Source: Tepidiforma bonchosmolovskayae
GTDB lineage: Bacteria > Chloroflexota > Dehalococcoidia > Tepidiformales > Tepidiformaceae
Direction of reading: 5' to 3'
Assembly (NCBI RefSeq): GCF_008838325.1
Contig: NZ_CP042829.1
Span: 186,001 to 250,000, forward strand
DNA: 64,000 nt
Within the stretch, counting starts at the first letter, position 1. Each line of letters starts with the position of its first letter. The notes beneath the pieces were generated by a model that saw nothing but the letters and a program-made list of their open reading frames with translations, made no database searches and was not told where the DNA came from. A program made the translations under genes and the position numbers. Of this stretch, positions 56,295 through 61,278 are shown one piece after another.

Positions 56295-57698
56295 TCAGAG
56301 CGGCGGCTCCCTGCGGTGCCAGTCGGTCGCACACTCGTAGGCGAACGCGGCCCGGAGGAGGGTGGGCTCATCGAACGGGCGGGCGGCGAGCTGGAGGCCG
56401 ATGGGAAGACCTTCGGAGGAGAAGCCGCAGGGGATGCTGATGGCGGGCACGCCCGCGAGGTTGAACGGCATCGTCAGGGAGGCGAAGGCGGCACCGGTGC
56501 TGAGCTGGACGCCCTCGACCTCGACCGGGTCCTCGCCGATGCGGGAGGCCGGGCGCATGGTCGTCGGCGCAGCGAGGAGGTCGACCGACTGGAGCGCGCG
56601 CCGCACCCCTTCTTTGATGCGGTAGCTGTCGAGGTAGGCGGCTGCGAGGTCGAGGGGCTCGGGCGGCGGCTGAAGGAGGATGTTCCGGAGCTCCTCGCTG
56701 TACGCCTCCGGCTGCTGTTCGAGGTATGGCGCGTGGTAGAGGCGGCCTTCGACGTTGACGAGCCGCCAGGCGGAGATGACCTGCTCGCGGGTGAAGCCGG
56801 AGTCGACGTCCTCGACCGTGGCGCCGAGGGTGCGGAAGCATTCGAGGGCCTCTTCGACGGCAACCAGGACTTCGGGGTCGAGCAGGCCGAAGAACTGGTC
56901 GCGCGGGACGCCGATGCGCAGGCCGCGGACGTCGGGAACGAGGGCTGCGCGGTAGTCTGGCACCGGGACGGGGACGGTAGCGAAGTCGTCGGGGTCGTAG
57001 CCGGCGATCGCCTGGAGGAGCATCGCGGCGTCCTCCACGGTCCGGGCGATGGGCCCGGCGTGGTCGAACTGCCAGGACATCGGGATGATGCCGGCCCGGC
57101 TTACCCGGCCGAATGTCGGTTTGAGCCCGACACAGCCGCAGAGGGCGGCAGGAATGCGAATGCTCCCGCCGGTGTCGGTCCCGAGGGTGCCGAGCGCGAG
57201 CCGTGCAGCGATGGCCGCCCCGGAGCCGCCGCTGGAGCCGCCCGGTATGCGCTCCGGGTCCCACGGGTTGCGGGTCGGGCCGGTGTGGGGGTTATTGGTG
57301 GTGGTGCCCCAGGCGAATTCGTGGGTGTTCGTCTTCCCGAGCAGGACCGCGCCCGCCTCGCGGAGCATGGTGGCGGCGGCCGCATCGCGTTCCGGGATAC
57401 GGCCGCGGAGAACGGCCGAGCCGGCGGCCGTTTCGATGCCTGCGGTGTCGTACAGGTCTTTGAGTCCGACGGGGATGCCATGGAGCGGGCCGCGGTAGAT
57501 GCCGGCCCGGAGCTCTTCCTCTGCGCGGGCAGCGTCGGCAAGGGCCCGCTCGGCCGTCACCAGGACGAAGGCGTTCAGCCGGGGATTGAGCCGCGCAATT
57601 CGGTCGAGGCAGGCGCGGGTGAGCTCGGTAGGGGCGAGTTCGCGGCGCTGGATGGCGCGGGCGGCCTCGGCGATGGTCAGGCTGGCTGGGTCGGTCAT
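56295..57698 (-). CDS. Amidase signature enzyme (GatA-like paralog)
   Basis: 467 residues from ATG 57698. The amidase triad is complete: Lys in GIPVGLKDLYDT, serines in PGGSSGGSGAAIAARL and GTDTGGSIRIPAALCG. It differs from the true gatA upstream in the C-terminal half, and no gatC-like partner is coupled. It likely hydrolyses a small amide; the substrate is unknown. It is 37 bp downstream of the methyltransferase gene and may share its transcript. The ribosome binding site is weak; upstream in-frame sequence is Pro-rich and likely untranslated. Confidence 0.9.
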   Translation of the reverse strand: MTDPASLTIAEAARAIQRRELAPTELTRACLDRIARLNPRLNAFVLVTAERALADAARAEEELRAGIYRGPLHGIPVGLKDLYDTAGIETAAGSAVLRGRIPERDAAAATMLREAGAVLLGKTNTHEFAWGTTTNNPHTGPTRNPWDPERIPGGSSGGSGAAIAARLALGTLGTDTGGSIRIPAALCGCVGLKPTFGRVSRAGIIPMSWQFDHAGPIARTVEDAAMLLQAIAGYDPDDFATVPVPVPDYRAALVPDVRGLRIGVPRDQFFGLLDPEVLVAVEEALECFRTLGATVEDVDSGFTREQVISAWRLVNVEGRLYHAPYLEQQPEAYSEELRNILLQPPPEPLDLAAAYLDSYRIKEGVRRALQSVDLLAAPTTMRPASRIGEDPVEVEGVQLSTGAAFASLTMPFNLAGVPAISIPCGFSSEGLPIGLQLAARPFDEPTLLRAAFAYECATDWHRREPPL

Positions 57699-57735
57699 CG
57701 GCGCGAACCTGCGATTGGGGAATGGGGCCTGGAAG

Positions 57736-59274
57736 TCAGGCCTCAAGGTAGCCGTGGCGGGCGAGCCACTGGAGGGCGGCGGCGAGCGCGACCCTCGCGG
57801 TGGCGAAGGATACGCCGGCGGCGCGAACGGCGTCATCCCGGGCGGCCGGGGCCAGTTCTTCGACAATGAGGCGGGCGAGCTGGTCGTGGTCGCGGGTGCC
57901 GTCGAGGTAAGGGAGCAGCGCGAGCGGAAGAGGCGGCACCTCGTGGACGGCGTGGGTGAGGGCCACGGGCATGGTGCCGTCGCGGGCGGCCTGGTGGCGG
58001 GCCATGGCGAATGCCCGCGGCTGCGGACCGGGGCGGGAAACGGGGCTGGCAGGCTCGACTTCGAGCTGGAGGCCGCCGTGGAAGAAGAGCCTCAGCAGCT
58101 TCGGGGCGGTGCGCTCCCAGAAGCGGCGCGGGTCGACCGCTGCGGCGAGCTCTTCGGCGGGGACGGCAGCCGGGCGGCGGTCGGCGAGGTAGCGGACGGC
58201 TTCGAGGAGGTCGGGGTCGCGCAGGGCGAGGATGCCGCCGGGGTGGGCAAGCTTGGGCAACGCGGGGTCGAACCGCTCCTCTCCGGGGCCGATGAAGTCG
58301 CCGAGCAGGCGGAGACTGAGCCCGCGAAGGGCGTCGGGGTGCGGGGGCCGCACGAGCTGGATGCCCTTGCTGCACAGCAGGGACTCCCGGAAGGTGCGCC
58401 CGTGGACGAAGTCGAGGAGCTGCTCCCGCTCGATGTGGCCCCGTGCGAGGGTTGCGAACTCCCGGGCGATGCCGGGGGCGAGGTCAGGGAGCGCCATGCG
58501 GAGCGGCCAGGCGTCGCCGAGATACTGGAGGCCGGCACCGGCGGCATGGGCGACGAAGTCGGCGAAGAACACCGGAGTGTTCGTTGGCTCGAGGTGCTCG
58601 TGGGCGACATAGTCATCGGGTCGGTCGGCGATAAAGTCGAGCTCGCGGGCGAGGACGCGGGCGTAGAGGGGGCCTCCGGGGAGCCGCGCTTCGAGGTCGA
58701 GGGAGGTGCGGACCACAATCTCGGCCATGGCCCGGGCATGGGCGACGAGACGGTCGGGCGGGGCGTCGAGGTTGCGAGTCGCGAAGACCATGAGCTCGCG
58801 GAGGGGCTGGCGCAGGAACCAGCCCGGGTAGCAGTTGTAGCTGACGAAGGCGATGCCGTTCGGCGCGAGGAGTTCCCGGCAAAGGCGGAGGAGGCGGTCG
58901 CGGACCGGGGCTTCGACCCAGGAATAGACGCCATGGGCGATGATATAGTCGAACGTTCCCAGCTCCGGGCCGACCTCCAGGATGTCGCGGAGGTCGAACC
59001 GCACATTCTGGAGGCCGAGGTCGGCGGCGACCTTGCGGGCGAACTCGACCTGGCGGGGGGCGTTATCGATGCCAATGCAGGCGGCGCCCGGGAGGCCGGC
59101 GGCGATGGCATTGAGGTTTTCGCCGATGGCCGAACCGAACTCGAGGATGCGGGCAGAGGCGACGGGCGGGGCATCGAGGCCGAAGAGCCGGCCAATCGCG
59201 GCGAGACGCCGGGGGTGGGAGGCTTCGACGGCGGTACCCTCGTAGGGGATGGCGTCGTAGCTGATGACTGGCAC
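57736..59274 (-). CDS. SAM-dependent methyltransferase with methyltransferase regulatory domain
   Basis: 512 residues, GTG start. Residues 40-165 form a class I methyltransferase (ILEFGSAIGENLNAIAAG, CIGIDNAP, DYIIAHGVYSWV). A helical segment with YNCYPGWFLRQPLRELM follows, typical of proteins with a methyltransferase regulatory domain. The C-terminal 250 residues are Leu/Ala-rich with paired charged helices. The substrate is unknown. TACACT lies 10 nt before the start, without a Shine-Dalgarno. It may be co-transcribed with the amidase. Confidence 0.85.
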   Translation of the reverse strand: MPVISYDAIPYEGTAVEASHPRRLAAIGRLFGLDAPPVASARILEFGSAIGENLNAIAAGLPGAACIGIDNAPRQVEFARKVAADLGLQNVRFDLRDILEVGPELGTFDYIIAHGVYSWVEAPVRDRLLRLCRELLAPNGIAFVSYNCYPGWFLRQPLRELMVFATRNLDAPPDRLVAHARAMAEIVVRTSLDLEARLPGGPLYARVLARELDFIADRPDDYVAHEHLEPTNTPVFFADFVAHAAGAGLQYLGDAWPLRMALPDLAPGIAREFATLARGHIEREQLLDFVHGRTFRESLLCSKGIQLVRPPHPDALRGLSLRLLGDFIGPGEERFDPALPKLAHPGGILALRDPDLLEAVRYLADRRPAAVPAEELAAAVDPRRFWERTAPKLLRLFFHGGLQLEVEPASPVSRPGPQPRAFAMARHQAARDGTMPVALTHAVHEVPPLPLALLPYLDGTRDHDQLARLIVEELAPAARDDAVRAAGVSFATARVALAAALQWLARHGYLEA

Positions 59275-59380
59275 CTCGACGACCAGTGTACGCAGGCCGG
59301 GAACCGGGGCGCGAGACGGGCAAGAATCGGGGAACGCCCGGTATTGACGTTATGAACGGGAGCCGGGAGAGTTAGCAGGC

Positions 59381-59452
59381 ATGGTTCACGCTACAACGCT
59401 CGCCGCGCTCCTTGCTGCTGCTGCCGCTGCGGCTGCGCGTGCGCGCCGGTAA
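59381..59452 (+). CDS. Possible Ala-rich leader peptide upstream of the aminotransferase
   Basis: A 23-codon frame, ATG to TAA, in the 283 bp gap 59275-59557. It encodes 12 alanines, eight of them consecutive (codons 12-19), and ends RARR. GGGAGAG lies 9 nt before the ATG. Six of the 12 Ala codons are GCT, a codon that is scarce in neighbouring genes, which prefer GCG and GCC. A hairpin lies 40 nt downstream, before the aminotransferase. This is the layout of an amino-acid attenuator leader. A chance frame in GC-rich repeat sequence cannot be excluded. Confidence 0.35.
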   Translation: MVHATTLAALLAAAAAAAARARR

Positions 59453-59491
59453 CGGGTGGCGGTCGAGCCAGCACGTCGAGAAACGCACAGG

Positions 59492-59513
59492 AAGGCCGCC
59501 CCCGGGCGGCCTT
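59492..59513 (+). terminator. Attenuator-like hairpin between the Ala-rich mini-ORF and the aminotransferase
   Basis: AAGGCCGCC (59492-59500) pairs with GGCGGCCTT (59505-59513), loop CCCG. The 5' arm could instead pair with GGCGGTC at 59458-59464, just after the mini-ORF stop, giving a competing 7-bp stem. The T tract is weak (TTTCCC). Confidence 0.45.
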
Positions 59514-59557
59514 TCCCGGTATGAAAGGCTGGCGGGGGCAAGGAGGAGCAGTCGCCG

Positions 59558-60754
59558 ATGACCGCTGAAACCGGCACCCGAACATCCCCCGACCGGTATA
59601 TCTCGCGCCGCATGCAGGCCGTTCCCCCAAGCGGCATCCGGCGGTTTTTCGACCTGCTGAGCACGATCGAGGATGTGATTTCGCTGGGCGTGGGCGAGCC
59701 CGACTACGTCACCCCGGAGCCGTTCCGGCGGGCCGCAATTGCGAGCATTGAGCGGGGCGACACGCATTACACCTCGAACTATGGCCTGCTGGAGCTGCGG
59801 GAGCGGCTCGCCGCCCACATCGAGCGGCTGTACGGCGTCCGGTACGACCCGAGGAGCGAGATTGTGGTCACGTCCGGTTCGAGCGAGGGGCTCGACATCG
59901 CAATGCGGGCCCTGATCGACCCCGGCGACGAGGTGCTCTGCGCGGACCCGAGCTACGTGGCGTACATGCCGGTCACGGTGATGGCCGGGGGAGTGTTCGT
60001 TCCGGTGCCGACGCGGCAGGAGGACGACTTCCGGCTGCTGCCGGGCCCGCTTGAAGCGGCGGTCACGCCGCGCTCGCGCGTGCTGCTGCTCGGCTACCCG
60101 GCGAACCCGACCGGGGCAACGATGTCGCGAGAGGACCTCGCCGCGGTCGCCGAAGTTGCGGAACGGCACGACCTTGCGGTGATCAGCGACGAGCTGTACG
60201 ACCGGATGACCTACGAGGGCGAGCACACCTGCTTCGCCTCGCTGCCGGGGATGCGCGAGCGGACGGTGCTCCTCGGCGGGTTCAGCAAGGCGTACGCGAT
60301 GACAGGGTGGCGGCTCGGATGGGTGGCGGCGCCGGCACCAATCGCCGAAGCGCTGATGAAGGTGCACCAGTACGTGATGATGTCAGCACCGACGGCGTCG
60401 CAGTACGCGGCCATTGCGGCCCTGGACGAGGGCGAGGCGTTCGTGACCGAGATGGTGGCGGAGTACAACCGGCGGCGCCGGCTGATCGTCGACGGGTTTC
60501 GGGCGGTCGGGCTCCCGACGTTCGAGCCGCGGGGCGCCTTCTATGCGTTCCCGGACATTCGGGTCACCGGGCTGACCAGCCTCGAGTTCAGCGAGCTGCT
60601 GCTGACCGAGGAGCGCGTGGCGGTGGTGCCGGGCAGTGCATTCGGGGCGTGCGGCGAAGGGCACGTGCGGGCGTGCTACGCCAGCGGCTTTGAGCAGATT
60701 GAGCGGGCGCTGGAGCGCATCGGACGGTTTGTGCAGCGGCACCGGGCGGGGTAG
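59558..60754 (+). CDS. PLP-dependent aminotransferase, class I/II
   Basis: 398 residues with AAGGAGGAG before the ATG. PLP-binding features: VTSGSSEGLDIAMRALIDPG, NPTGATMSRE, SDELYDRMTY, and the Schiff-base lysine at 244 in GGFSKAYAMTGWRLGW. The C-terminal Arg is in ACYASGFEQIERALERI-type context. It belongs with the Asp/Ala/aromatic aminotransferases (AlaA/AspC-like) and uses glutamate or a related donor; the exact pair is open. A leader-like Ala-rich frame and hairpin lie upstream. A strong terminator follows. Confidence 0.93.
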   Translation: MTAETGTRTSPDRYISRRMQAVPPSGIRRFFDLLSTIEDVISLGVGEPDYVTPEPFRRAAIASIERGDTHYTSNYGLLELRERLAAHIERLYGVRYDPRSEIVVTSGSSEGLDIAMRALIDPGDEVLCADPSYVAYMPVTVMAGGVFVPVPTRQEDDFRLLPGPLEAAVTPRSRVLLLGYPANPTGATMSREDLAAVAEVAERHDLAVISDELYDRMTYEGEHTCFASLPGMRERTVLLGGFSKAYAMTGWRLGWVAAPAPIAEALMKVHQYVMMSAPTASQYAAIAALDEGEAFVTEMVAEYNRRRRLIVDGFRAVGLPTFEPRGAFYAFPDIRVTGLTSLEFSELLLTEERVAVVPGSAFGACGEGHVRACYASGFEQIERALERIGRFVQRHRAG

Positions 60755-60885: not shown

Positions 60886-61278
60886 ATGAGGGGTCGATGG
60901 GGTCGCCGGGCGTGGCTCGCAGGGACGGCGACAGTACTGCTGGCCACCGCAGCCTGCGGAGGCGGCGGCAGCGAGAAGACCGAGGTGAAACTCGAGAACG
61001 TGAATCCGAACGTCTCGACGCCCGCTGCGGCCGCCGAGCGTCCGGTCCAGGAGATCAAGGTCACCGACCAGGGCTGCGACCCGGCGAACGTGACGATCAA
61101 GGCACGGACACGGGTCATCTGGAAGTGGCAGAACACGTCAACGCCGATCGCTATCCTCCTGGCGGGGCAGAAGTCGCCGGAGCAGACGACCGGCGAGTAC
61201 CAGCGCGACTTCGACCAGGGCGGGGTCAGCTTCCCCTACCAGTGCGGGCCGATGACCGGGCGCATCGTGGTCGAATAG
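60886..61278 (+). CDS. Cupredoxin-like lipoprotein without copper-ligand histidines
   Basis: 130 residues. A lipoprotein signal peptide ends at LLATAACGGGG (Cys24), with a flexible Gly/Ser linker. The mature part resembles a cupredoxin: VTDQGCDPANVTIKARTRVIWKWQN, then FPYQCGPMTGRIVVE in place of the usual C-terminal Cys-His-Met copper loop. The protein contains no histidine at all, so a normal type 1 copper site is impossible. Cys64 and Cys120 could form a disulfide. TAGGAT at 60843-60848 is a likely -10 and AAGGAGG is the ribosome binding site. Confidence 0.8.
   Translation: MRGRWGRRAWLAGTATVLLATAACGGGGSEKTEVKLENVNPNVSTPAAAAERPVQEIKVTDQGCDPANVTIKARTRVIWKWQNTSTPIAILLAGQKSPEQTTGEYQRDFDQGGVSFPYQCGPMTGRIVVE

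Follow-up and report, generated by a model that had tools for sequence, protein, structure and literature searches.

A short alanine-rich reading frame and a GC-rich hairpin precede an aminotransferase gene in Tepidiforma bonchosmolovskayae (Tepidiformaceae, Chloroflexota), and the locus raises the question of whether ribosomes translating the frame control transcription of the gene. The locus lies in a 64,000-nucleotide stretch, called the window here, of the 2.75 Mb, single-contig genome. A first-pass annotation had described a 23-codon frame with 12 alanine codons, eight of them consecutive, followed by a hairpin at 59492–59513 and an aminotransferase gene, and had likened this layout to classical amino-acid attenuation. 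We found the frame and its run as described, the hairpin to be the core of a longer one, and the gene to encode a class I/II aminotransferase with a PF00155 domain (Table 1). On the evidence below, it is highly likely that the leader is a ribosome-mediated transcription attenuator that would sense charged tRNA-Ala and control an aminotransferase that probably makes alanine. Comparison established the geometry and the pairings; we infer that the ribosome stalls, that transcription terminates and that the leader responds to alanine, with alanine limitation as the signal.

Table 1 Features of the leader and the aminotransferase gene, with the evidence for each
Feature	Position	Strand	Evidence
-35 element TTGACG	59344..59349	+	TTGAC[GC], exactly 17 nt spacing in relatives
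-10 element GAGAGT	59367..59372	+	[GC]AGAGT or near variant in nearly all relatives
Predicted transcription start	59379..59381	+	At or 1–2 nt 5' of leader ATG, from promoter spacing and lack of a conserved Shine–Dalgarno
Leader ORF MVHATTLAALLAAAAAAAARARR (then stop)	59381..59452	+	Sequence, relatives, codon changes
Strand 1 (protector), in the first codons, potential partner of strand 2	59382..59394	+	Folding; cognate preference
Eight-Ala-codon run (regulatory codons)	59414..59437	+	Run of 4–8 Ala in 25/25 leaders
Strand 2 (antiterminator strand, GGGTGGCGGTC), right after stop codon	59454..59464	+	Comparison and folding
Strand 3, terminator 5' arm, alternative partner of strand 2	59490..59500	+	Covariation and folding
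Strand 4, terminator 3' arm, then weak T tract	59505..59515	+	Covariation and folding
Aminotransferase Shine–Dalgarno AAGGAGGAG	59540..59548	+	Sequence
Class I/II aminotransferase, probable alanine aminotransferase (alaT-like)	59558..60754	+	Pfam PF00155; nearest NCBIfam PRK07682

A comparison of relatives, which the annotation had proposed for seeing whether the enzyme is kept without the frame or the stems, recovered the Ala-rich frame and both stems in 25 of the 28 family orthologues with enough upstream sequence. These 25 loci share one layout: TTGAC[GC], 17 nt, an [GC]AGAGT-like element, 7–10 nt, a start codon, the Ala-rich ORF, a GGCGG-type strand after the stop codon and, about 20–40 nt beyond that strand, a GC-rich hairpin. 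The leader is missing in two of the exceptions (G017 and G036). The third, G013 (locus L030), is small and AT-rich; the promoter is still there, as is a hairpin with seven T, but the Ala-rich ORF is not, a natural loss of the sensor.

The leader ORF and its alanine codons

The leader ORFs of the 25 relatives have 7–13 Ala in 21–30 codons, and the Ala run is preserved across about 13 genera. Among close relatives, codon changes in the ORF comprise 22 synonymous and 15 non-synonymous ones, against a random expectation of 33% synonymous, and substitutions within the Ala run are synonymous without exception. This synonymous excess, together with a run that changes only synonymously, supports the view that the leader ORF is a coding sequence and, indirectly, that it is translated. 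The annotation had also remarked that half of the Ala codons are GCT, rare in nearby genes. GCT accounts for 6 of the 12 leader Ala codons and for 1 of 47 in the aminotransferase gene, and in 13 relatives it makes up 41 of 137 leader Ala codons and 38 of 636 in the aminotransferase genes (p ~1e-13), with the excess individually significant in 6 of the 13 leaders. The GCT excess may hinder self-folding of the Ala run, or it may slow decoding.

Between genera the leader peptide varies throughout, apart from its Ala run and its short tail (A-[RHQ]-A-R-[RGS]). The tail, followed by the stop codon, occupies leader codons 20–23 (59438–59449) and is kept in nearly all leaders, at some synonymous sites too (GCG CGC); leader L018 has the Ala run and lacks the tail. 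Simple codon sensing gives no reason for a conserved peptide tail. A general sensor of translation stress could give one, and the mycobacterial whiB7 uORF system offers a model for it, since later articles credit it with an alanine-starvation response (PMC13236596 and PMC10727445, citing Poulton et al. 2024). As those articles present it, whiB7 is a single uORF system that answers both antibiotics and alanine starvation, and the whiB7/wblC attenuator shares with the present leader a uORF, a terminator with an antiterminator and an alanine-starvation response, which here we would only predict. In a sensor of this kind any stall, whether caused by antibiotics or by arrest of a nascent chain on poly-Ala with a basic tail, would induce the gene, and alanine would be one trigger among others. 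We regard this as improbable. Those articles have whiB7/wblC controlling a transcription factor and answering many translation inhibitors, whereas here one metabolic gene, an aminotransferase that is neither a resistance gene nor a regulator, would be controlled directly. Moreover, L018 does without the tail yet keeps its Ala run, and what stays constant among these leaders is the Ala codons.

Promoter, competing stems and a proposed switch

The promoter was identified by comparison, as sigma-70 and terminator pattern scans gave no match at the locus, given its GAGAGT -10 element and short T tract. The pattern TTGAC-N19-AGAGT occurs three times in the 2.75 Mb genome and once in the window, where 0.04 occurrences would be expected. 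In relatives the start codon follows the -10 element by 7–10 nt, which leaves room for a 5' UTR of at most about 1–4 nt, and comparing relatives revealed no conserved Shine–Dalgarno before the leader ORF, unlike the aminotransferase genes, which have a clear one. This fixed gap and the absence of a conserved Shine–Dalgarno indicate that the leader mRNA is probably leaderless. The plausible Shine–Dalgarno that had been assigned to the mini-ORF falls in the gap from the -10 element to the ATG and lacks conservation; it probably precedes the transcription start and would then be untranscribed. A Shine–Dalgarno-led leader was rejected on these grounds.

Downstream of the ORF, two pairings compete for strand 3. 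The terminator hairpin (59490–59500:59505–59515) has a predicted energy of -21.3 kcal/mol (z -2.6), and the fragment 59450–59505 folds as an antiterminator at -25.8 kcal/mol (z -2.9), in keeping with the earlier suggestion that GGCGGTC (59458–59464) can pair with the 5' arm of the hairpin. Both stems co-vary. At one strand 2:strand 3 pair, 13 of 26 sequences have C-G and 11 have G-C, and further pairs switch between T-G, C-G and T-A or between C-G and T-A; strands 2 and 3 occur as GGCGGTC/GACCGCC, GGCGGCC/GGCCGCC and GGCGGC/GCCGCC. Strand 4 changes along with them, and the terminator arms likewise retain their pairing. In 12 representatives, not corrected for relatedness, cognate pairing beats heterologous pairing both for strands 2 and 3 (p 0.027) and for strands 1 and 2 (permutation p 0.004), and in single leaders fewer than half of the strand 1:strand 2 pairings are clearly better than shuffles. 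The covariation tests draw on few independent lineages and make no correction for relatedness. With 12 representatives and no such correction, the cognate-pairing tests are, taken singly, supportive and not conclusive. Between strands 2 and 3, the motif GTCGAG (59474–59479) recurs in several genera (L001, L003 and L011–L014).

The position of the stop codon fits these pairings. Strand 2 begins 2–6 nt past it in 12 of the 13 leaders; in the thirteenth (L007) the reading frame passes through strand 2, so a terminating ribosome would hide strand 2 in all 13. When folding was masked for a ribosome on the Ala run, the antiterminator was mostly formed before strand 4, and with a ribosome on the stop codon it never formed. 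Family conservation, co-varying stems and the spacing from stop codon to strand 2 together bear out the classical layout that the first reading had proposed.

A switch could then work as follows. RNA polymerase would initiate at or next to the leader ATG, and a ribosome would translate the leaderless Ala-rich ORF, a step that the synonymous changes support. With ample Ala-tRNA the ribosome would reach the stop codon and cover strand 2, leaving strands 3 and 4 to form the terminator, and transcription would stop 5' of the aminotransferase gene. With Ala-tRNA scarce, the ribosome would stall on the Ala run and leave strand 2 free to pair with strand 3 before strand 4 exists, which would pre-empt the terminator and allow the gene to be transcribed. 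Without translation, strand 1 could pair with strand 2 and termination would be the default.

Equilibrium folding favours the terminator over the antiterminator in most leaders, even with a stalled ribosome, which means that the switch must be kinetic. The same result could be read as a sign that there is no amino-acid switch: the ORF might instead affect how the aminotransferase is translated, through coupling or RNA unfolding, or the hairpin might serve constitutively, as a terminator or as a processing site. The weak T tract would fit such a reading: the caution voiced earlier holds for the window, where the tract is CTTTCCC, and for its genus. It does not extend to several relatives, which have T4–T5, and the hairpin ends about 25 nt 5' of the aminotransferase Shine–Dalgarno. 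In addition, a constitutive hairpin would have no need of the covariation seen between the antiterminator and strand 3. We therefore hold an arrangement without a switch to be quite improbable. It is very improbable that the ORF encodes a functional small protein, hydrophobic and Ala-rich, beside an unrelated hairpin. Its coding character is supported and TLAALLAAAAAAAARARR could form a short helix that is hydrophobic and has a basic end, but the peptide varies freely between genera apart from the run and short tail, and a protein would require neither fixed spacing to strand 2 nor co-varying RNA pairs.

Distribution of the leader and identity of the gene

A covariance model of the leader found one strong copy each in 29 of the 38 family genomes, that is, in 29 of the 32 with an orthologue of the aminotransferase and in none of the six without; two of the 29 copies are at contig ends, with the gene at the end of another contig. 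The automatic structure of the model was poor, so the search was mainly sequence-driven. Matches in relatives reached E values down to 1e-33, with a single strong place per genome. This distribution, together with an eight-codon GCN run that has no counterpart elsewhere on the window's + strand and that none of 30 first-order Markov simulations of the window reproduced, overturns the earlier caution about GC-rich repeats and rules out a chance Ala run, leaving a chance product of this GC-rich, Ala-rich genome with a negligible probability.

Outside the family, the model was run against about 140 genomes of the class, where the few matches were weak and scattered, and against about 300 genomes of the phylum, where it gave one match, none of them convincing; no ORF with at least five consecutive Ala was present in the 400 nt upstream of about 57 orthologues. 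Rfam 15 gave no match for 59300–59600 up to E = 1; a known riboswitch, T-box or Rfam leader was rejected for lack of a match.

Other amino-acid genes were also inspected. No attenuators were seen before ilvB and trpE of the source genome. The leuA genes of the family (L139, L148–L162 and L164) carry a conserved hairpin, CGCCCCGG-ACTCA-CCGGGGCGCG, seen by eye in 17 of the 18 loci; it is followed by CCTTT in several loci and has no Rfam match. In the source genome (L139) it lies about 190–280 nt upstream of the gene, and a short ORF, which begins some 8 nt past a TATCCT-like -10 element, overlaps it. The leuA hairpin and ORF are possibly a second leaderless-ORF leader, one without a Leu run. Ahead of a leuA-like gene (L140), a leaderless-looking ORF, MKLASRPKVRATPRTSRGVAI, lies about 80–160 nt upstream, starts 7 nt after TAGCAT and overlaps the hairpin CCCCGCG-TACAT-CGCGGGG.

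The aminotransferase scores 512 bits against PRK07682, under the curated cut-off of 620 for that model, and 372 bits against the next. We take PRK07682 to be the family of Bacillus subtilis YugH, renamed AlaT, whose gene neighbours that of the Lrp-type regulator AlaR. Among solved relatives the best are one aromatic and one aspartate aminotransferase, so the substrate is something that we infer. The enzyme probably makes alanine, and its neighbours elsewhere in the class support an alanine role: an Lrp/AsnC gene (PF01037) adjoins the aminotransferase gene in 21 of 61 loci there, commonly in the order gatA-lrp-alaT. No Lrp/AsnC gene was found beside the aminotransferase gene in the loci of Tepidiformaceae, several genera of which have the order gatA-attenuator-alaT. 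This arrangement suggests that the leader may stand in for the protein regulator. Tentatively, and with a little less than even confidence, we propose that a leaderless Ala-codon attenuator replaced the Lrp/AsnC regulator of alaT in Tepidiformaceae and is the first known attenuator to control an alanine gene directly through Ala codons.

In the window, the GatA-like amidase gene (56295–57866, − strand) is near the aminotransferase gene and inverted; in other genera it lies directly upstream in the same orientation. A small cupredoxin-like lipoprotein gene (60886–61278, + strand), whose Pfam score is slightly under the cut-off, lies just 3' of the aminotransferase gene. The source genome also encodes an alanine dehydrogenase.

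Relation to known attenuators

Codon-run attenuators are textbook systems for Trp, His, Leu, Ile/Val, Phe and Thr, and one for Cys is also known. The classical trp, his, leu and ilv attenuators share with this leader a short ORF rich in codons for the amino acid of the pathway, a terminator before the first gene, a mutually exclusive antiterminator and a strand 2 located directly after the stop codon. They differ from it in that the amino acid here is alanine, a single aminotransferase gene follows, the ORF is probably leaderless and the distribution is so far confined to Tepidiformaceae. In B. subtilis, the PRK07682-like alanine aminotransferase gene of the AlaR-AlaT pair (yugGH) is presumably regulated by the DNA-binding Lrp-type protein. 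The Lrp-type gene adjoins the aminotransferase gene there, as it does elsewhere in this Chloroflexota class, whereas the Tepidiformaceae locus has no such neighbour and carries an RNA leader in the gap.

The closest precedents for a leaderless start are actinobacterial. As summarized in later articles, mycobacterial leaderless short ORFs with consecutive cysteine codons attenuate a downstream operon (Canestrari et al. 2020, cited in PMC9031893, PMC13236596), and this combination of a leaderless short ORF, a run of codons for one amino acid and attenuation of what follows is the one proposed for the present leader, with Ala in place of Cys. No conserved intrinsic terminator was found for the polycysteine ORFs (PMC1262725), whereas the terminator is conserved here. 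The Corynebacterium ilvBNC attenuator also has a leaderless leader peptide (PMC11857589; Morbach et al. 2000). It has the three-hairpin logic and the protector hairpin near the start that are proposed here, but employs branched-chain codons in an actinobacterium, in contrast to Ala codons in Chloroflexota.

In the open literature we found no description of an alanine-codon attenuator before an alanine gene, nor of a codon-run attenuator in Chloroflexota. The first-pass annotation knew of no established alanine-responsive ribosome attenuator; that statement stands for attenuators placed before an alanine gene and gives way for the whiB7 uORF, going by the articles that describe its answer to alanine starvation. 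What would be new here is the use of Ala codons, a probably leaderless ORF and the restriction to one bacterial family; the classical logic was already known.

For an aminotransferase whose sequence does not reveal its substrate, the leader points to a definite candidate function. If the attenuator is real, its position before an alanine gene would extend the list of codon-run attenuators, and bacteria other than Actinobacteria would be shown to run the mechanism on a leaderless ORF together with an intrinsic terminator. If the proposed replacement is also true, a protein regulator would have been swapped for a cis-acting ribosome sensor, gatA-lrp-alaT against gatA-attenuator-alaT. The class offers a natural comparison of protein regulator and RNA leader at the same gene.
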